From assembly GCA_016932965.1 (NCBI GenBank), contig JAFGBW010000220.1:1-12241 (forward strand): a stretch of DNA of 12,241 nt, written 5' to 3'. This DNA comes from Candidatus Auribacterota bacterium. GTDB taxonomy: Bacteria > Auribacterota > JAFGBW01. Below, in pieces: positions 2,905 through 12,087 of the stretch. A program made the translations under genes and the position numbers. How positions within the stretch are numbered: position 1 is the first letter of the stretch; every line of letters starts with the position of its first letter. The notes under the pieces are model-generated. The model saw only the letters and a list, made by a program, of their open reading frames with translations. It ran no database searches and was not told the DNA's origin.

Positions 2905-2910
2905 CTCCTT
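2905..2910 (-). promoter_or_regulatory. Strong ribosome binding site overlapping the upstream stop codon
   Basis: AAGGAG on the minus strand lies five bases before the ATG at 2899 and shares two bases with the TAA stop of the kinase-HD gene. This fixes the NDK-like start and suggests translational coupling of the two genes. Confidence 0.8.
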
Positions 2911-5182
2911 AACCTGATTTCCTGAATGGAGCTGTTTCTGCCGGTACAGGAAGCGAAGGGGCCGGCCCGGTACGCAAAAGAAGAACAGACCCAAAAATCC
3001 CGCCCGGCAATTCCTCACGGGTGATGATCTGAAAACCCGCCCTTTCAACGGCCGCAAAATAAACTTCTTTGGGATCGTCCAATCTGACCTGCTCCAATGT
3101 GGCGGTTAATTGTAAAATCACTTCCAATGCGGCATCCCACGGTTCTGCAGTAATAAAACTCCCTACAGATGCAGGAGCATTGGATTTCATGTGATAATAC
3201 AATTTCAATATTTTGGCCAGCATTTCATCCTGTTCATCTGTTTCCTCTTTATAATGATCTCTCAAGACTCTCGTGACATTGGAAAAACTGACTGTTCCAT
3301 ATAGATTGAATTCCTCCACCACAGCAGGGTATTTCTGAACAAAACGGTCAAACCAGGGAGAATCACCTCCGGGATTGGTGAAAAATTCCTTACGTGGGGT
3401 CAATAATTTCCGCAAACGGATTTTTGCATCCATATATTTTTCAGGATGTTCCATGATGTCGCAATATCCGGCCAGGGAAGAAGGCCTGAGCTTATTGGGC
3501 CCCCTCACCAACTGATTGTAGGAAGGATTCGGGTTTCTGTACCCGGCCAGATCAACAATATTCTGAACAAGAAGACAGATATTTTGCTGGGGGGAATCGT
3601 GCAGAAAAACGGTCGGATCACCAAAGCCCAGATTGACATCTCCGACAATAGTGTGTTTCCTGATGATATCAGGTATAAAGGTGTTATCTTCCAAAAAACG
3701 GATGCCCAGTAAACGCATCTTTCCAGGAAAATGTACGGCACCCAGAAAACCGTGATTCTGTCCGTTACTGCCTTTCATAGTGGCCCCCAGATCATGAAAC
3801 AAGACCTCCCAGGTTAAAAGCCATCTCTCATAAGGAGTAGTCAGGGTATATAATCTTTCATGTATTCGTCTGAGCCGTTCGATATATTGCGCCCTGACAT
3901 CTGAAGGCAGGGGCTGATCATACCCCAAATCATATTGCTGGGTGAAATATTCAAACCTGCCGTGGAGAAGACGGTTATAATAGACTACCACTTCCACGAC
4001 ATGTTCAAATTTAAAAGTGTCGGGAAAACCATTTTCTCCGAATTCAGAGATGAGTCTTGGAATAGTCTCCCGGAGCTTTTGTCTCAGGACCTCGACATCA
4101 TCCCCGTCATAATCGATAATAAAAGAAACGAGCCTTTGAAGCTCAATGCCTTTCAGAAAATGACTGGTCCTGTCCAGTACCTCTTTTGTCCGCGCATCAT
4201 AGGAAGCATACCCTGACAGAGGAAAATACCCGAAGGCAGAACGAAGAGGAACGGAAGTATGATATTGACGAAAAATTTCCGGGGTATAGCCGTCTATTTT
4301 ATCCCGTTCTGAATATAGACGGCCGTACTGGGCAATCAAATCCCGGCGCATGACCTCTTCGGAAAGCAGAACCTGATCCGGGGCATCTGATGTCTTCAAA
4401 ATGTCCCGCAAATACAAATTCTTTAACTCATGTCCGTCTCTCAGCCACCTGTTCAATTCCCCCTCTCCTGCCTGTTCCGGAGTGACTTCAAGATACAATT
4501 CAATGGAAGGGACATTCATGGCGCGGATGGAGGGCAATGCACGATACCGGCAGTCAACGAGCACGGAATAACCGGATTCCAGCAAATCCTGTAATTCCCT
4601 GATCCTGAACTCTCCCATGAAACCGGATTGATTCAATACCTCTGTGACAGCAGATATCGCTATGTTGTTTGCCATATCCCTGTTGGCTTTCAGATTGATC
4701 AAGGCATACAAGTCCACAGGCGGTCCTTCATCGGTCACATGCTCGTAAGTGACATAACGGGTTCCGTCGGGACGCTGGTTGATTTTCCGGACCAATTGCC
4801 GGGAAAAGTTCCTGGCGTATTGATCCACTTCTCGACGATGCTCGCTCAAATACGCCGTGAATGCTTGTCTGGTTTTCACTAATTCCGGATCGATCTGCCT
4901 GACATGTTCCACTATCTGAAGGGTGAACACCCTGTATAAATCCCCCCAGGAAAACTGGACGCTGTCTGGAATATGCCCGGCAAGATCTCTTTCAAGCATG
5001 GATTTGCCTGAACCGCTGTTTCCGACGATCGCTATCAACTGGCCTTTGGTTTCCAGATATTTGGTGGAAAATTGAACAGAGGATACTGGGGCCAGGGATG
5101 AGGTATCGGCTGAATATCCATCTTTAATCAAAAAAATCCCGAATATCAGGACCCCTATCAAACTTTTTTTTTTAATCCACAT
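2909..5182 (-). CDS. P-loop (cytidylate-kinase-like) kinase fused to HD phosphohydrolase, with signal peptide and LAP motif
   Basis: A 757-residue protein. Three lysines and a hydrophobic run (residues 7-19) form a signal-like start, with a plausible cleavage after YSA (25); LAP is at 30-32. A P-loop kinase domain follows: LIAIVGNSGSGKS (Walker A, 54-61), then SWGDLYRVF, which resembles the substrate region of cytidylate kinases, and a GYSVLVDCR strand resembling their VLDGRD segment. The second domain carries an HD phosphohydrolase pattern: H394, H463-D464 (FHDLGA), H477, H510 and D544. The N-terminus predicts phosphoryl transfer and the HD part predicts phosphate or phosphodiester hydrolysis; substrates are unknown. 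The last ~120 residues are unassigned. It is the middle gene of the operon, 20 bases after the radical SAM gene and 9 before the NDK-like gene. Its start has only a weak upstream GACGG, with an in-frame TGA just before, so no longer start exists. Confidence 0.78.
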   Translation of the reverse strand: MWIKKKSLIGVLIFGIFLIKDGYSADTSSLAPVSSVQFSTKYLETKGQLIAIVGNSGSGKSMLERDLAGHIPDSVQFSWGDLYRVFTLQIVEHVRQIDPELVKTRQAFTAYLSEHRREVDQYARNFSRQLVRKINQRPDGTRYVTYEHVTDEGPPVDLYALINLKANRDMANNIAISAVTEVLNQSGFMGEFRIRELQDLLESGYSVLVDCRYRALPSIRAMNVPSIELYLEVTPEQAGEGELNRWLRDGHELKNLYLRDILKTSDAPDQVLLSEEVMRRDLIAQYGRLYSERDKIDGYTPEIFRQYHTSVPLRSAFGYFPLSGYASYDARTKEVLDRTSHFLKGIELQRLVSFIIDYDGDDVEVLRQKLRETIPRLISEFGENGFPDTFKFEHVVEVVVYYNRLLHGRFEYFTQQYDLGYDQPLPSDVRAQYIERLRRIHERLYTLTTPYERWLLTWEVLFHDLGATMKGSNGQNHGFLGAVHFPGKMRLLGIRFLEDNTFIPDIIRKHTIVGDVNLGFGDPTVFLHDSPQQNICLLVQNIVDLAGYRNPNPSYNQLVRGPNKLRPSSLAGYCDIMEHPEKYMDAKIRLRKLLTPRKEFFTNPGGDSPWFDRFVQKYPAVVEEFNLYGTVSFSNVTRVLRDHYKEETDEQDEMLAKILKLYYHMKSNAPASVGSFITAEPWDAALEVILQLTATLEQVRLDDPKEVYFAAVERAGFQIITREELPGGIFGSVLLLRTGPAPSLPVPAETAPFRKSG

Positions 5183-5202: not shown

Positions 5203-6309
5203 TTACGCAGAGGAGGCGTCCCTCTCCAATGCCCACTTATCAAAATTCAAAAGGGATCCGCAAACTCCCCCAATATCCCTTCCATGCCCCTTGGATATTT
5301 TAACTACAAATCCCATATCTATCAAAGTTCTAACAAATTTCCGCAACTCCTCATCCACATTAATTCCTGACAACAAATGGATTTGTCCATCAGCCGTATT
5401 GACTCTAGCAAAACTAAAGGCAAAATGCTGGGGATCAAAATACCTAGTTAAATTAGCTAATGTTGTGTCATTAATGTTTAATTCGGTTAAAATATAATTA
5501 AGAAAAACTTTTCTTCCAGTTGCTTCACTCCAACGCCTGCCGTATCTTTGCAATCGAGCTAAATATCTACTGCTCCTCATTACCGTTCCTTCTAAGGGAT
5601 GAATACTCAATTGCAGGCCGATCTGGGGAATACGCTGTGACAATTCGATAAAATCATCGTATAATTTCGAATCAACTTTCGGCATCATGGTTGAAACCAA
5701 AAGCTGAGCCCTTGGAAAAAGACGGTTCAATTCTATCAAAGCTTCTTTCACATTATCATAATTGACAAAAGGTTCCCCCATGGACATCAGCATGATTTGA
5801 AATTGTTTGGCTTCATCTCTTACTGTCTCGTAAACACCGCGGTGTTTAAGCATGCTGACCACCTGCTCCACGATTTCAGCCGATGTCAATGACCGGTAAA
5901 ACCTGCCTTTTGTCGCGCAATACCGGCATTTCTGGGGACAGCCGCAGCTTATCGAAATGCAGCATAAGACGCGTCTTTTAAAATCAGCGCTTTCCGTAAA
6001 AAGAACACATTCAGTCAGGGCCGAAGCCAGCTGAGGCACTCCCAGCTTCATTTCAACACCTGCAGGGAAAAAGGTATAGACATATTTCCAGATATACGGA
6101 TTGCCGTCAGGCAGCCGGTCCTGACTCTCAAAACAGTGTTCTATCAGGCCGCGCACCGTAGTGGCAGGGGCAAGAGTGTGCTGCGAAGTACTCTCCGGGG
6201 CCGAATGGATTCTCTGACCAGCGAAACCGGTGCTTATAAAGAAACAAAAGAAAAAAATGCCATAATAAAGAGATATTTTTTTATTGCAAAAAATCATGCT
6301 GCACGACAT
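5203..6309 (-). CDS. RlmN/Cfr-like radical SAM protein with signal peptide and LAP motif
   Basis: A 368-residue protein. The hydrophobic segment at 12-29 (LYYGIFFFCFFISTGFA) looks like a signal peptide with possible cleavage after A30; LAP is at 46-48. The body matches RlmN/Cfr, SAM enzymes that methylate an RNA adenine through a methyl-cysteine. The iron-sulfur motif C124-x3-C128-x2-C131 is present, with C117 upstream at the spacing seen in RlmN (CxxxxxxC before the cluster), SMGEPFVNYDNV corresponds to GMGEPLLNYDNV, and C350 in RDIGGVCGSL corresponds to the catalytic C-terminal cysteine of DIxAACGQL. Both mechanistic cysteines are therefore kept. The RlmN accessory N-terminal domain is largely missing and replaced by the signal/LAP leader. 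RNA methylation in an export location is paradoxical, so the substrate may differ. It heads the three-gene operon and has a clear promoter; AGGAAGAA precedes the ATG, and an alternative ATG lies four codons in. Confidence 0.82.
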   Translation of the reverse strand: MSCSMIFCNKKISLYYGIFFFCFFISTGFAGQRIHSAPESTSQHTLAPATTVRGLIEHCFESQDRLPDGNPYIWKYVYTFFPAGVEMKLGVPQLASALTECVLFTESADFKRRVLCCISISCGCPQKCRYCATKGRFYRSLTSAEIVEQVVSMLKHRGVYETVRDEAKQFQIMLMSMGEPFVNYDNVKEALIELNRLFPRAQLLVSTMMPKVDSKLYDDFIELSQRIPQIGLQLSIHPLEGTVMRSSRYLARLQRYGRRWSEATGRKVFLNYILTELNINDTTLANLTRYFDPQHFAFSFARVNTADGQIHLLSGINVDEELRKFVRTLIDMGFVVKISKGHGRDIGGVCGSLLNFDKWALERDASSA

Positions 6310-6461: not shown

Positions 6462-7283
6462 TCATGCCGCGCCCAATACCAGGGCATGCCCGGCACAGGA
6501 TATCCCGGCCTGCTGCAATGCTTCAAGAGCCAGAGCATGTGTTCCTTCTCCCAACGAAGTGGCAACAGAATCTGATAATACGGTTATATCCAACCGGCCT
6601 TTATAGGGGGAGCCCGCTGTCCGGGTGATACAGGCATCGGTTTCAACACCACAGACAAGCGGTTTCATAAGGCCATGCTGTTCAAGCCACCTGGCAAGAT
6701 CCGTTTCGCAGAATCCGTCATAATGGTGCTTGACCACTTCAAATGCTTGGATGGGCAATTGTTCTATCGGGGCGATCAATCTGCTGCCCCAGGTATTTTT
6801 TTTACACGGATAATACCGCGGGTGTTTCCGTAAAAAATCCGGCGGCGGAGCTTTTGGGTTCTCATATTTTCTCGTATGATCATATTCCACACGGACAAAA
6901 ATAATGGGGATCCCTTGTTGTTCAGCCTGGCAGATCGTTTCCAGGACTCTGGCGATAAAATCAGGTGAAAATTCCTTTCTCAGTCTGTATTCCTGCTCAG
7001 CAGAAGGAGTCTCCAGGGCCTGCTCATAATCAGTTGAGGCGGGACTGGTCATTTCTGCTTCAAGATCTGTTTTTCTGTCGTAGTACCCCTTTTGGGCAAG
7101 AAAATCGTTCTGCATATCAATCACAATCAATACGTTATTTCCTGTGAACCTGACATCTTCTGCTTCGGAGATCGGTATCAGCTTCAAACTGCATTTTTTA
7201 GGGGCAAGGAAATCATGCCCAATCCCCCAAACTGAATTTGAAAGAAAGATCATATTGACTATGAATATGATTGATTTTTTCAT
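6462..7283 (-). CDS. Isochorismatase-family hydrolase with signal peptide and LAP motif
   Basis: A 273-residue protein. Start: the ATG at 7283 gives MKKSIIFIVNMIFLSNSVWG, a clean signal-peptide start; a GTG five codons upstream (7298) is in frame but lacks a binding site. LAP is at 26-28. The rest is an isochorismatase-like cysteine hydrolase with the full triad: D56 in VLIVIDMQNDF, K185 in EVVKHHYDGF, and C218 in CGVETDACITRTA. Members hydrolyse amides or vinyl ethers (nicotinamide, isochorismate, ureidoacrylate). The D-x-H metal site typical of nicotinamidase PncA is not evident, so I do not call it PncA despite a nucleotidyltransferase-like neighbour. An insertion at about 70-105, rich in Glu and polar residues, lengthens it beyond the usual ~180-220 residues. 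It has its own promoter, divergent from the 848-residue gene; reading on into the radical SAM operon is possible. Confidence 0.85.
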   Translation of the reverse strand: MKKSIIFIVNMIFLSNSVWGIGHDFLAPKKCSLKLIPISEAEDVRFTGNNVLIVIDMQNDFLAQKGYYDRKTDLEAEMTSPASTDYEQALETPSAEQEYRLRKEFSPDFIARVLETICQAEQQGIPIIFVRVEYDHTRKYENPKAPPPDFLRKHPRYYPCKKNTWGSRLIAPIEQLPIQAFEVVKHHYDGFCETDLARWLEQHGLMKPLVCGVETDACITRTAGSPYKGRLDITVLSDSVATSLGEGTHALALEALQQAGISCAGHALVLGAA

Positions 7284-7346
7284 GATCTCATTTTTCACTT
7301 AATACTGAAATCGATATTATTAACATGCCTGGTTGACCTCAATTTA

Positions 7347-7375: not shown

Positions 7376-7395
7376 GCCATGAGGCTCTGGAACAT

Positions 7396-7625
7396 GGTGA
7401 ATAGTAAATAGTGAATGGGAAAAACGGCTTGTGAGTTGGAATGATGAAATTTCTTTTTACTTGTAACTCAACATTTATAGCTCTAATCCATTGCGCCTCT
7501 GTGGTAAACCTTTTCTCTCATCCCGGGCAACAGCGAAACATCCATAACTAGTAACTGATGATTTGGTGACTAGTGACTGGTACCAGCAGATCATTACTCC
7601 TCTCCTGTCACTATTCACTATTTAC
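7396..7625. repeat. Imperfect inverted repeat pair of GTGAATAGT words
   Basis: The 23 bases at 7396-7418 (GGTGAATAGTAAATAGTGAA and three more) match the reverse complement of 7604-7625 with about four differences. The arms enclose roughly 185 bases. Each arm is itself built of 7-9 base AGTGAAT/AGTAAAT words, so this may be repeat drift and not the ends of a transposable unit. Confidence 0.5.
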
Positions 7626-7627
7626 CA

Positions 7628-7655
7628 TTCTCAATTCTAAATTCTAAATTCTCAA
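7628..7655. repeat. Heptamer tandem array TTCTMAA, four units (copy 2)
   Basis: Four exact 7-base units: TTCTCAA, TTCTAAA, TTCTAAA, TTCTCAA, followed by a C run and ATGGTG. It differs from copy 1 (838-865) only in the second unit and has the same kind of flanks. Confidence 0.8.
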
Positions 7656-7779
7656 TCCCCCCCATGGTGTCACTGTTTCTTTGGGAATTTCCTCCAATTG
7701 TCAAACTTTGCCAGTCCAAAGGCTGTACCGTTAGGTTACCGGCCTAAATAAACAAATTTTTAAAAAAAATGATTCTAAG

Positions 7780-7928: not shown

Positions 7929-10475
7929 ATGTGTAGAGATAATAATCATTTGTTCTTACAACTCATTTTACTGATCTTCTTTTCATTCCCCCCTCTTCAG
8001 TCAAAGGAAATGGCTGTCGATTCCGCACTGGCCCCTAAAAACAATAATTTGACTGCCGTAACCATTATGGAACTGGGCCCCCGTGTTGATGCCAAAACCC
8101 CTTTGGCCATGAAATGGCAGACGGTCAAGCAAAAAATCCTGAGAGGAGACCAGGAATTCCACGGAGATGAATTCCTGAAAAATTTATTTACCGACAAATA
8201 TGCGGGAATCATTCACACAATCAATCAGGACCCGGAAAAACATCTCTTAACCATCAATGCCCTGGACTTCATGATGAACACTTACAACTGGGTTACGCTG
8301 GAATACATCAATGAACCCTTGCTGGTGCAAGAGGGAGCGAACGAAGACGAAGAAAAGGAAAAGGCTATCCAGGAAATGCGGGTCATGTTTGATGCTATCA
8401 TCAGCGCAGTGGCAAGAACTTGCGATAGATTAGCCAGCGGGGACCTGACAGCCGGGTCTGTTCAATTAAGAACATCAGAAGATAAGACAGTGACACCTGT
8501 TTCCAACGCCAGAGATGCCTCTGGCAATAAAAGAAATGCAAAAGTGGTTATTTTACCAGTAAAATTCGACCCGTTGACAATGGCTCACATCCGGCTGATA
8601 TTCGAAAGTTTCGCACAGGGAGCGGACTGCGTCGTCACCATGATGGACGAATATGATGAGAGAAAAGCCGGACTTTCCGGCCGCACCATCAGAGAGGCTG
8701 ACACAAAATGGCTGTATGACGCTTTAAACGGGTTTCTTGTCGAGCCTGCCTTTCAATGTGAACGCAGATCGTTACTTGACTGTGACGGCGAGGCGATTCT
8801 TCCGACTTTGATTTATGAGAACAGGGCCATAGCCGAGGATGTGACCTGGATCTATCTGGCCGGTTACGACCATTTCAACTGGATAAGAACAGTGCCGGAC
8901 GCGCTCATGAGTATGCATGAGTTTGACGTTCAAATGGCTAAATACGCCGTTGATCCTAGGGAAATGCATGAACTCCTAAAGACCAATAAAATGGTCAATA
9001 ATTTTTATAAATTTCAAAGGAATCTCGCTGATCTTCCTGAAGTAGAGAGGAGGGCGTTAATAGCGACGATAGAAAAAAGATGGCCGGAACAGGCTTCGAA
9101 TATCATTCCTCTCCTGAACGGCCTTGTGCACTACCTGAGGGAAATGGACACACCGTCCAAACTGGCCCATACCCGGCAATTGATGTTATCTCTGAATATC
9201 AATACTTCAATAGGCGGATTCATTGTAAAACGTCTTGCAGATGCCAGAGATAAGACTGACGACCTAATACGAGAACGTCACAAGGCTATTGAAGCTTTAT
9301 GTAAGATAGCTGAAATAGATTATTATGAACAAACAATCAATGATTGGCTGGACATGACCCACTTGCCTGCTCCAATCAGAGATCATCTTGCTGTTTTCAG
9401 GGAAAGGCTAACCCGGTGGATATCCGATAAAAAGGAGCATGAGATAAATTACGATGGAAATGGCAGTCCGCATGAACCGGAGACGATTGAGAAAATAAAA
9501 ACCTGGCTGGGTTATTATCAAACCGCACAAAATCCCCGGCTTGCTACCAATGTCAGAGTGACCAACTGGCATAAACGATATGAACAAGCGGCTCAATGGA
9601 AAGAGCGCGGGCCGGCCGGCACTGAAAGACATATCCTTTCTGATTTATTCGATCAATTGTTAGGGCTGACAGAAGTTGATGGTTTTGATCAATTCTTTGA
9701 AGGACTGGATAAAATTTATTCTCAAAGCAATGGAATGAGTTTTACAATAGCTAAATCCCCGTCAAAAAATCCATCCTCCCGGTTAAGAATCGATGATACC
9801 GGTCATTCCATGCCTTATATAGGTTTCCAGCATGCCACGTCACTGGCCCTGCATCGTCCCTACTCAGACGACTATATAACAAAAAAAGACAGGGAAATTG
9901 CCGCTCAAGTCATCGGTTCGCTGATAGACCTGAACCTGTTTAAGCACCCTGGAATGGCGACAGTCAATAGAGCACAGATCAATCCTGAGCGATTAACAGA
10001 AATTCTAGGAAAAGTCTTAATTTACTCATTGGATATGGATATGCTGTTATCAACCATATTAAAAAGAGCAAAAGATTCTCTGGCTGTTAAAGAACGGTCT
10101 CCGCTGATGACAAGGGATTCAACAAGAGCCCTAATGGCATATAGCGATATAGCACACATGATGCATTCTGCTTACGGCCGCGGACTCAGCGCCATCGATA
10201 TATTTTTATCAACGTGTTTCAAAAATGATAACTCATATACGGCCCTGCGTCATACCATCGCGCAGGGCGTTCATGATGACGCGGCTGCGATGAAACTGGT
10301 CAGAAAAAAGATCACTGCATTCCGGGATCTGGTAAGGCAAAGATGCGAAACGATTTTTGCAGAAAGCGAAGGCAATCCTCACCCGATGAGTTCAGCTAAA
10401 AGAAGATTCATCCTGGAACAAATAACCGGCGGAACGATGCTGACTGAGCATTCTCTTGTCCGGGCCTCTTCATAG
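7929..10475 (+). CDS. Large protein with NadD/CoaD-type nucleotidyltransferase motifs, signal peptide and LAP motif
   Basis: An 848-residue protein. A hydrophobic run (8-20) gives a signal-like start and LAP is at 34-36. Residues about 205-325 contain VVILPVKFDPLTMAHIRLI: F213-D-P followed by T217-M-A-H220 matches the (T/H)xGH motif of NMN/nicotinate-mononucleotide and phosphopantetheine adenylyltransferases (compare FDPxTNGH). LSGRTIRE (249-256) resembles the ISSTxIR nucleotide motif but lies unusually close to the first one. IYLAGYDHFNWI (308-319) resembles the GADxxxxfxxW strand of NadD. I infer adenylyl transfer to a nucleotide-like substrate, with moderate doubt because Gly of xGH is Ala and motif spacing is unusual. 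Residues 1-200 and about 340-848 are largely helical, unrecognised, and make up most of the protein. AAGG eight bases before the ATG supports the start. Gene is divergent from the isochorismatase-family gene. Confidence 0.65.
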   Translation: MCRDNNHLFLQLILLIFFSFPPLQSKEMAVDSALAPKNNNLTAVTIMELGPRVDAKTPLAMKWQTVKQKILRGDQEFHGDEFLKNLFTDKYAGIIHTINQDPEKHLLTINALDFMMNTYNWVTLEYINEPLLVQEGANEDEEKEKAIQEMRVMFDAIISAVARTCDRLASGDLTAGSVQLRTSEDKTVTPVSNARDASGNKRNAKVVILPVKFDPLTMAHIRLIFESFAQGADCVVTMMDEYDERKAGLSGRTIREADTKWLYDALNGFLVEPAFQCERRSLLDCDGEAILPTLIYENRAIAEDVTWIYLAGYDHFNWIRTVPDALMSMHEFDVQMAKYAVDPREMHELLKTNKMVNNFYKFQRNLADLPEVERRALIATIEKRWPEQASNIIPLLNGLVHYLREMDTPSKLAHTRQLMLSLNINTSIGGFIVKRLADARDKTDDLIRERHKAIEALCKIAEIDYYEQTINDWLDMTHLPAPIRDHLAVFRERLTRWISDKKEHEINYDGNGSPHEPETIEKIKTWLGYYQTAQNPRLATNVRVTNWHKRYEQAAQWKERGPAGTERHILSDLFDQLLGLTEVDGFDQFFEGLDKIYSQSNGMSFTIAKSPSKNPSSRLRIDDTGHSMPYIGFQHATSLALHRPYSDDYITKKDREIAAQVIGSLIDLNLFKHPGMATVNRAQINPERLTEILGKVLIYSLDMDMLLSTILKRAKDSLAVKERSPLMTRDSTRALMAYSDIAHMMHSAYGRGLSAIDIFLSTCFKNDNSYTALRHTIAQGVHDDAAAMKLVRKKITAFRDLVRQRCETIFAESEGNPHPMSSAKRRFILEQITGGTMLTEHSLVRASS

Positions 10476-10668: not shown

Positions 10669-12087
10669 ATGAAAAACAAAGGAATCATCCTTATTTGTAA
10701 TAAAGCCATTATGGTAACTGCTCTTCTGGCATTTGTTACGACCATGATAGGGGCAGTGCCTCTACCTGACACTTTTTCAAATGCAGCGCATCATTCCCAG
10801 GCTCTTTCCCCGGCTTCCATTCTGGATAAGGCGTCCCCGCCGTCCGCCAAGAAGCAAAAAGAAGGGAAACTCACGGAAGGAATCATGCAAGTGGCCATTT
10901 CAGACATAGAAGCAGCCATCAGAAAAAAAAAAGAAGAATCCGATGAACCTTTTATTATCCTGATCGGCGGAAAATCCTGCTCCGGGAAAACAACTCAAAT
11001 AGCCCAGGTTCTGGCAAAACATTTTTCCTGCAATGTTCTTGAAATGGACATGTATTACCTGGGCCGCACCTACATGAGAGAACATGGGTATGACAGTTTT
11101 GACATCCCTCAGGTCTTTGATTTGGGGCTTCTTGTGGAAAACATCCGGCAGTTGAGAAACAGGCAGACGGCCCGGATACCCGTTTACTCTTTTCTAACCA
11201 AAGAAAGACAGGGGTACACAGATCTTCCTCCTGCGGATGTCCTCATCATAGAAGGCATGTTCGGACTGGATGATCAACTCGCCGAACAGGGTGATTACTG
11301 TCTTTTTATTGATATAGGAAAAATCGGGCAACTGCTCAGAAGAATGTATAAGGAAGTGATCATAGGAAGAACCGGGCACACTTTCCGTCATGAAATCAGA
11401 CAATTATTGACCCAGGTCATCCCTTCTGAAAAAGAATACATTGAACCCACCCGAAAAAATGCGGATGTGATTGTCCATAATGAATACAACCCTGAAGTAG
11501 AGTCCGCCTTATTGCCATACACGGAAGTGCAGGCCAAGATCAACTCAGTCAATCTTCCTGCAGGCAGATTGACTGAGTTGGGGGCCCGGCAACTCGCTGA
11601 AACACAACACATCGACACCTACTATGTCCCTATTGATACGGATCTGGCACAAAACGGGGAAACACTGATGATCCGGGAGGAAGATCAGGAAATGAGTTTG
11701 ACTTATAAAGGGCCGCTTATTCCTTCCGAATTACAATACCGGACCAGGCTGAATCTGCCCTTTGAAAGAGATTTGCTTCCTTTTGTCCATCTTGATTATA
11801 AGCCGGTTGCGAAAATCCGTAAAACCAGAACAACATACAAACTCAACGAGCTGATCATCCATCTGGACCATGTGGAAACACTCGGGGATTTCATCGAAAT
11901 CACTACTCCTGAACCGGCCAATGCCGGAGACAGAGATACCATACTGGAACTCCTCAGAACATTGGGTATTTCTCAAGACAGAATCATCAAAAAAACCTAT
12001 CTGGATTTGATGCTGGAAAAAACCCCCTGGACTGAAACAAGGCCTTCAACCGGCGAAAGATCCAGCGGAGTCCCTTCTTCAGCATAA
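10669..12087 (+). CDS. Uridine-kinase-like/CYTH fusion with signal peptide and LSP motif
   Basis: A 472-residue protein. Hydrophobic residues 13-29 form a signal-like segment; LSP is at 46-48, followed by a Lys-rich linker. Residues about 94-275 are a uridine/phosphoribulokinase-type P-loop domain: IGGKSCSGKT (Walker A, 100-108), EMDMYYLGRTY, DSFDIPQVFDLGLL, ARIPVYSFLTKER, ADVLIIEGMFGL and a late EYIEPTRKNAD. Residues about 284-450 are a CYTH (triphosphate tunnel) domain: EVQAK (a variant of ExExK, 286-290), DTYYVPIDTDLA, LTYKGP, KIRKTRTTYKL and LGDFIEITTP. The kinase-CYTH order is the one of plant TTM1/TTM2, which hydrolyse pyrophosphate (established family knowledge); here a signal/LSP leader is added. 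A near-perfect palindrome encodes residues 292-304. The start is supported by GGAG just before the ATG, though the spacing is short. It may be read with the upstream gene or from an unseen promoter. Confidence 0.85.
   Translation: MKNKGIILICNKAIMVTALLAFVTTMIGAVPLPDTFSNAAHHSQALSPASILDKASPPSAKKQKEGKLTEGIMQVAISDIEAAIRKKKEESDEPFIILIGGKSCSGKTTQIAQVLAKHFSCNVLEMDMYYLGRTYMREHGYDSFDIPQVFDLGLLVENIRQLRNRQTARIPVYSFLTKERQGYTDLPPADVLIIEGMFGLDDQLAEQGDYCLFIDIGKIGQLLRRMYKEVIIGRTGHTFRHEIRQLLTQVIPSEKEYIEPTRKNADVIVHNEYNPEVESALLPYTEVQAKINSVNLPAGRLTELGARQLAETQHIDTYYVPIDTDLAQNGETLMIREEDQEMSLTYKGPLIPSELQYRTRLNLPFERDLLPFVHLDYKPVAKIRKTRTTYKLNELIIHLDHVETLGDFIEITTPEPANAGDRDTILELLRTLGISQDRIIKKTYLDLMLEKTPWTETRPSTGERSSGVPSSA
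11541..11580. repeat. 40-base palindrome inside the CYTH coding sequence
   Basis: Nineteen of twenty base pairs of a 40-base two-fold symmetric sequence match: arms CAACTCAGTCAATCT and AGATTGACTGAGTTG (15 bases, exact), one T/C mismatch, and a central CCTGCAGG. Because of the symmetry and phase, NSVNLPAGRLTEL is encoded both in the gene's own frame (residues 292-304) and in one minus-strand frame. It lies between the EVQAK strand and the LGARQL segment of the CYTH domain. Confidence 0.95.

Follow-up and report, generated by a model that had tools for sequence, protein, structure and literature searches.

Results

A near-perfect palindrome in frame within a kinase–CYTH gene

A near-perfect palindrome of 40 bases lies in frame within an intact kinase–CYTH gene of the window (the whole 12,241-nucleotide stretch of DNA that was analysed), and it is likely the scar of a replication template-switch mutation, of the quasipalindrome type, in coding sequence. 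It occupies positions 11541–11580 of the plus strand and consists of two abutting 20-base arms with no loop, in which 19 of 20 pairs match. The left arm, CAACTCAGTCAATCTTCCTG (11541–11560, plus strand), encodes NSVNLP plus flanking bases, and the right arm, CAGGCAGATTGACTGAGTTG (11561–11580, plus strand), encodes GRLTEL. The sole mismatched pair (11556/11565) sets the T of CTT against the C of GGC, at third codon positions on both arms; the codons that a perfect copy would have left, CTG or GGA, are synonymous whichever arm changed, and the mismatch fits later drift. The central octamer, CCTGCAGG (11557–11564), is perfect, with TGCA as the hairpin loop, and a weak outward extension of the stem (11532–11586, plus strand) pairs GGCC at 11532–11535 with GGCC at 11583–11586 around an unequal internal loop.

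The palindrome falls in open frame at residues 291–304 (INSVNLPAGRLTEL), early in the CYTH domain, and in its register the third codon positions of the two arms face each other. Position, symmetry, frame, and freedom from stops had all been described in a sequence-only reading of this DNA and were confirmed on the sequence. The same reading had remarked that both strands encode one peptide. NSVNLPAGRLTEL can indeed be read on the minus strand as well; a palindrome in the third-with-third register forces this, so it is an automatic consequence rather than a second finding, and the minus-strand frame, only 76 aa long there, gives no evidence of a product.

The host gene (10669–12087, plus strand) is an intact open reading frame of 472 aa that joins a uridine-kinase-like part to a CYTH domain. 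A hydrophobic, signal-like stretch at the N terminus of the protein is followed by a P-loop kinase of the uridine kinase/PRK family (aa 96–270; Pfam PRK, 1.3 × 10−17) and a CYTH/CyaB-like domain (aa 286–448; Pfam CYTH, 7.8 × 10−19, 68.6 bits). The latter scores above the profile cut-off for a CYTH/triphosphate tunnel enzyme (TIGR00318 cyaB, 86.1 bits; cut-off 58), and an AlphaFold model of the CYTH piece contains many strands (mean pLDDT 73). The ExExK signature is degenerate, with YTEVQ at the aligned place and the middle E alone retained, but DTYY and LTYKGP are both kept. The palindrome spans helix 1 of this domain and the loop between that helix and strand 1, in the domain's poorly conserved N-terminal part; in the numbering of the modelled piece, the strand covers residues 13–18, the palindrome 19–31, and the helix 24–30, at a pLDDT of about 75.

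Among 59 relatives, no second full-length kinase and CYTH fusion was found. Searches for a close orthologue of the fused gene in its own order and phylum, in GTDB contigs (two scans), and in 384 relatives returned separate kinase or CYTH matches only. Plant TTM1 and TTM2 likewise combine a uridine kinase and a CYTH domain in one protein (PMC8615392); the host gene differs from these in being bacterial and in its signal-like N terminus, the activity of its protein is predicted, and no palindrome is known in TTM1/TTM2.

The symmetry exceeds chance and protein constraint

For random codons, the probability of such a palindrome is 5.5 × 10−11 per site, which by simple arithmetic corresponds to about 1.7 × 10−4 gapless cases over this 3.1-Mb genome. 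Not one in-gene hairpin of the palindrome's score appeared when 685 kb of coding DNA were codon-shuffled 40 times, in support of the earlier expectation that a symmetry of this length is unlikely to arise by chance in coding DNA. An unusual codon coincidence, noticed because very many windows are read, has nevertheless to be weighed; roughly tenfold more cases are expected when short loops are allowed, and some of them would turn up in a survey that covers thousands of genomes. Coincidence is an unlikely explanation here, since the genome's weaker in-gene hairpins also exceed codon shuffles, which points to a process, and since the asymmetry of the arms toward the protein family would be an additional coincidence (both described below).

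Synonymous recoding that left the peptide unchanged reached at least 19 pairs with P = 3.7 × 10−4 under the codon usage of the window and P = 2.6 × 10−4 under that of the genome sample; third-position pairs alone, 6 of 7 of which matched, gave P = 0.0087. Because of these last two values, protein constraint alone is insufficient. Pairs at first and second codon positions matched in 13 of 13 cases. Of the genome's 197,645 real codon windows in this register, no other does so; therefore, the amino acids themselves track the palindrome, as those of a copied arm would. Adjacent inverted arms that are near perfect beyond chance, and also beyond protein constraint, are what a template switch produces.

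The same values bear on a selected mRNA stem–loop, one that delays translation at the kinase/CYTH boundary and lets the kinase fold first, for example, or that controls mRNA stability. The stem is very stable (−24.6 kcal/mol for 40 nt, z = −7.1) and sits just past the interdomain linker, and third positions pair better than codon usage predicts. Selection at synonymous sites would, however, leave all 13 matched non-synonymous pairs unexplained, and the third-with-third register is the most restrictive one for the protein (PMC6649704). No Rfam match was found near the palindrome, and no comparable hairpin occurs at the site in relatives (see below). Such a selected element is improbable as the origin of the symmetry; that a hairpin made by template switch was afterwards kept, and sets the timing of expression, or of folding during translation, for the two-domain enzyme, has a slim chance of being correct.

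CYTH relatives lack the palindrome and fit one arm better than the other

Counted on printed sequences, the conserved strand-1 E and the D of DTYY lie 30 residues apart in the host. The three closest CYTH homologues and one same-order sequence have a distance of 29, others have 30, and one has 27. As this spacing is near normal, at most one codon is extra and no element was inserted, in agreement with the earlier view, drawn from the ExExK-to-DTYY distance, that the palindrome arose in place or replaced native sequence. None of the relatives, which are distant, separate-domain homologues, carries the palindrome, and the best local hairpin score at the site is 3–6 compared with 16 in the host. 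Orthologues encoding the same peptide without the palindrome, which the sequence-only reading had named as the observation that would count against it, were not encountered; the peptide is encoded by no relative.

Against the four closest relatives used, the right arm gave a mean BLOSUM62 score of +0.96 and the left arm −0.68, over 13 residues and at 33–36% identity at best. GRLTEL and the GA that follows it fit the family pattern K-L-x-x-L-G (K or R at the first position), and the left arm, NSVNLPA, aligns where the closest homologues have NKEDVEK and the like, in a stretch one codon longer than in the three closest relatives. The left arm is probably the overwritten one and the right arm the native template, a direction moderately supported by this alignment: the relatives are free of the palindrome and the left arm looks foreign among them, but all are distant, and neither arm stood out against five other, more distant relatives. 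The few residues compared and the low identity count against the assignment of direction.

No further copies of the palindrome were found

A second copy of the palindrome was found in its own genome neither by a 20-mer search allowing up to 3 mismatches nor by a 120-base BLAST; one 3-mismatch match, on contig C165, covers a single arm. The 20-mer search of 42 genomes of the phylum returned no palindrome and just two 3-mismatch single-arm matches, an exact-pattern search of IMG/VR viral contigs returned none, and the palindrome peptide occurs nowhere else in its own genome. The sequence-only reading had proposed kinship to the palindromic elements of Rickettsia (RPEs), with further copies and other genes holding the same peptide as the things to look for, and this proposal is not supported by the genome, the phylum sample, the viral contigs, or the length of the protein, to which nothing of element size was added.

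RPEs are reportedly multi-copy families that add residues to proteins (Ogata et al. 2000, 2002, as cited in PMC6649704). The host palindrome resembles them as a stop-free, in-frame palindrome in a bacterial protein-coding gene; it differs from them in having no family of copies, being single in its genome, and no inserted length, its E-to-D spacing of 30 compared with 27–30 in relatives. REP and MITE elements were also rejected, as the multiple, mostly extragenic copies that define them were not found in the genome or the phylum sample. That any in-frame mobile palindromic element (RPE type, REP, or MITE) landed in the gene is highly improbable, given a sole copy even at 3 mismatches, a peptide without a second occurrence, and no net insertion of element size.

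Long dyads are also typical of binding, recombinase, and protelomerase sites, and the sequence-only reading had suggested a regulatory hairpin or binding site. This suggestion fared poorly: a T-run does not follow the stem, Rfam gave no match, and relatives do not conserve the hairpin. Neither a terminator nor a promoter-like site was found at the palindrome; for an intrinsic terminator the T-run is lacking on both strands, the stem being followed by GGGGGCCC on the plus strand and ATCTTGGCC on the minus strand. That the gene harbours a protein-binding or recombinase/protelomerase-type site, or that the palindrome is an assembly artefact, is very unlikely: the palindrome is single, the gene intact, and the domain spacing normal, and an assembly fold-back would hardly preserve both reading frame and domain spacing.

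An excess of weaker in-gene hairpins in the same genome

A hairpin census was carried out on 909 kb of the genome (29%), fetched as stretches and with crude ORF-based gene calls. The palindrome was the strongest in-gene hairpin of this sample (score 16), and all equal or higher scores lay outside called genes. Weaker in-gene hairpins exceeded codon shuffles, with 11 compared with 2.6 at a score of at least 11 and 5 compared with 0.1 at a score of at least 13; stricter gene limits reduced the in-gene counts to 7 and 2, respectively. The excess is consistent with a genome-wide process that homogenises arms and, with gene calls this crude, is to be taken as indicative.

Outside genes, 16 hairpins scored at least 18 in the 909 kb. 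Paired or clustered long hairpins stand between genes at L066 7840–8224, L078 8718–8818, L079 13935–14289, and L062 12121–12849, with perfect or near-perfect arms of 15–21 bases that differ in sequence and often contain the motifs GGGAAAAACTTTTT or CATGGGGATC. In a genome of the same order (G001), a perfect A/T-rich hairpin with 20-bp arms lies within a called ORF at L149 19551–19594; this ORF may be miscalled.

Other features of the window

In five of the seven main genes of the window, the encoded protein opens with a hydrophobic stretch that resembles a signal sequence and then carries a short LAP/LSP tag. These are 2909–5182 (minus strand; SSLAPVSS), 5203–6309 (minus; HTLAPATT), 6462–7298 (minus; DFLAPKK), 7929–10475 (plus; SALAPKN), and the host gene itself, 10669–12087 (plus; QALSPAS). 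Such a start is unexpected for the domains of the tagged proteins (uridine kinase, RlmN-like radical SAM, isochorismatase), which normally belong to the cytosol. Roughly a dozen or more further ORFs of similar appearance were seen in the 909 kb of the genome, and none of this type in a sample of a same-order genome. Judged from these N-terminal sequences, the LAP/LSP start is possibly a lineage-specific sorting signal.

The 848-aa protein encoded at 7929–10475 had no Pfam or NCBIfam match; its segment VVILPVKFDPLTMAHIRLI may resemble the start of a nucleotidyltransferase (NMNAT-like). Intergenic, tandem-like repeats of ATTCTCAATTCTAAATTCT, with ATTCACTATTTACCATT nearby in both orientations, lie at 808–873, 7388–7416, and 7598–7663, in two spacers 6.8 kb apart.

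Discussion

The palindrome is a genuine, isolated coding palindrome that most likely arose by a known type of mutation, and a mobile element is not supported. From its symmetry beyond what the protein requires, its uniqueness, the lack of a net insert of element size, and its absence from relatives, we infer the switch, its direction, and its timing as follows. As replication passed through the beginning of the CYTH domain, the nascent strand would have folded back around CCTGCAGG or moved over to the opposite parental strand, and one arm would have served as the template for the other before the polymerase returned to its normal template with the frame kept. The left arm (NSVNLPA) would thereby have been overwritten as the reverse complement of the native right arm (RLTEL of helix 1, then GA), and one later synonymous change would have broken one pair. 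The enzyme would have tolerated the overwritten residues because the loop and helix are poorly conserved.

That the palindrome is present as a single copy counts in favour of a template switch. Against it, to rewrite an arm of 20 bases in full would call for either a large event or several steps, and a palindrome with zero loop requires either that the four central bases stay unpaired or that the switch occurs between strands. By itself the palindrome is a curiosity, and template switching has already been described in reporters, in strains of yeast, and in RNA genes, where perfect stems can arise by one switch (PMC8794818). If the explanation given here is true, the host gene adds a case from nature, in a protein-coding gene of a bacterium, where a single step may have rewritten about seven adjacent residues in a tolerant helix. 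Given sister genomes, the excess of weaker in-gene inverted repeats would make the rate of switching measurable.

Three known systems invite comparison. In Escherichia coli, template switches perfect quasipalindromes, and in the thyA and lacZ reporters adjacent inverted arms within coding DNA become identical or nearly so through copying of the sister arm (PMC7202029), much as proposed here; the host palindrome differs in its long, 20-bp arm and in being inferred from one genome without an ancestor. In Saccharomyces cerevisiae, switches produced clustered replacements in 39 genes (PMC8604942), and the homogenised arms, clustered amino acid replacements, and mostly tolerant positions are shared with the host case. 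The yeast events, unlike the host case, were seen between strains; most affect one or two codons, and they replaced at most five adjacent residues (PMC8604942). In the mitochondria of nematomorphs, inverted repeats lie inside conserved genes that encode proteins of normal length, as in the host gene (PMC6649704). Those palindromes are many, up to 284 bp long, and usually perfect, whereas the host palindrome is single, bacterial, and short, and it is in the third-with-third register (phase 3), which the longest nematomorph repeats avoid (PMC6649704).
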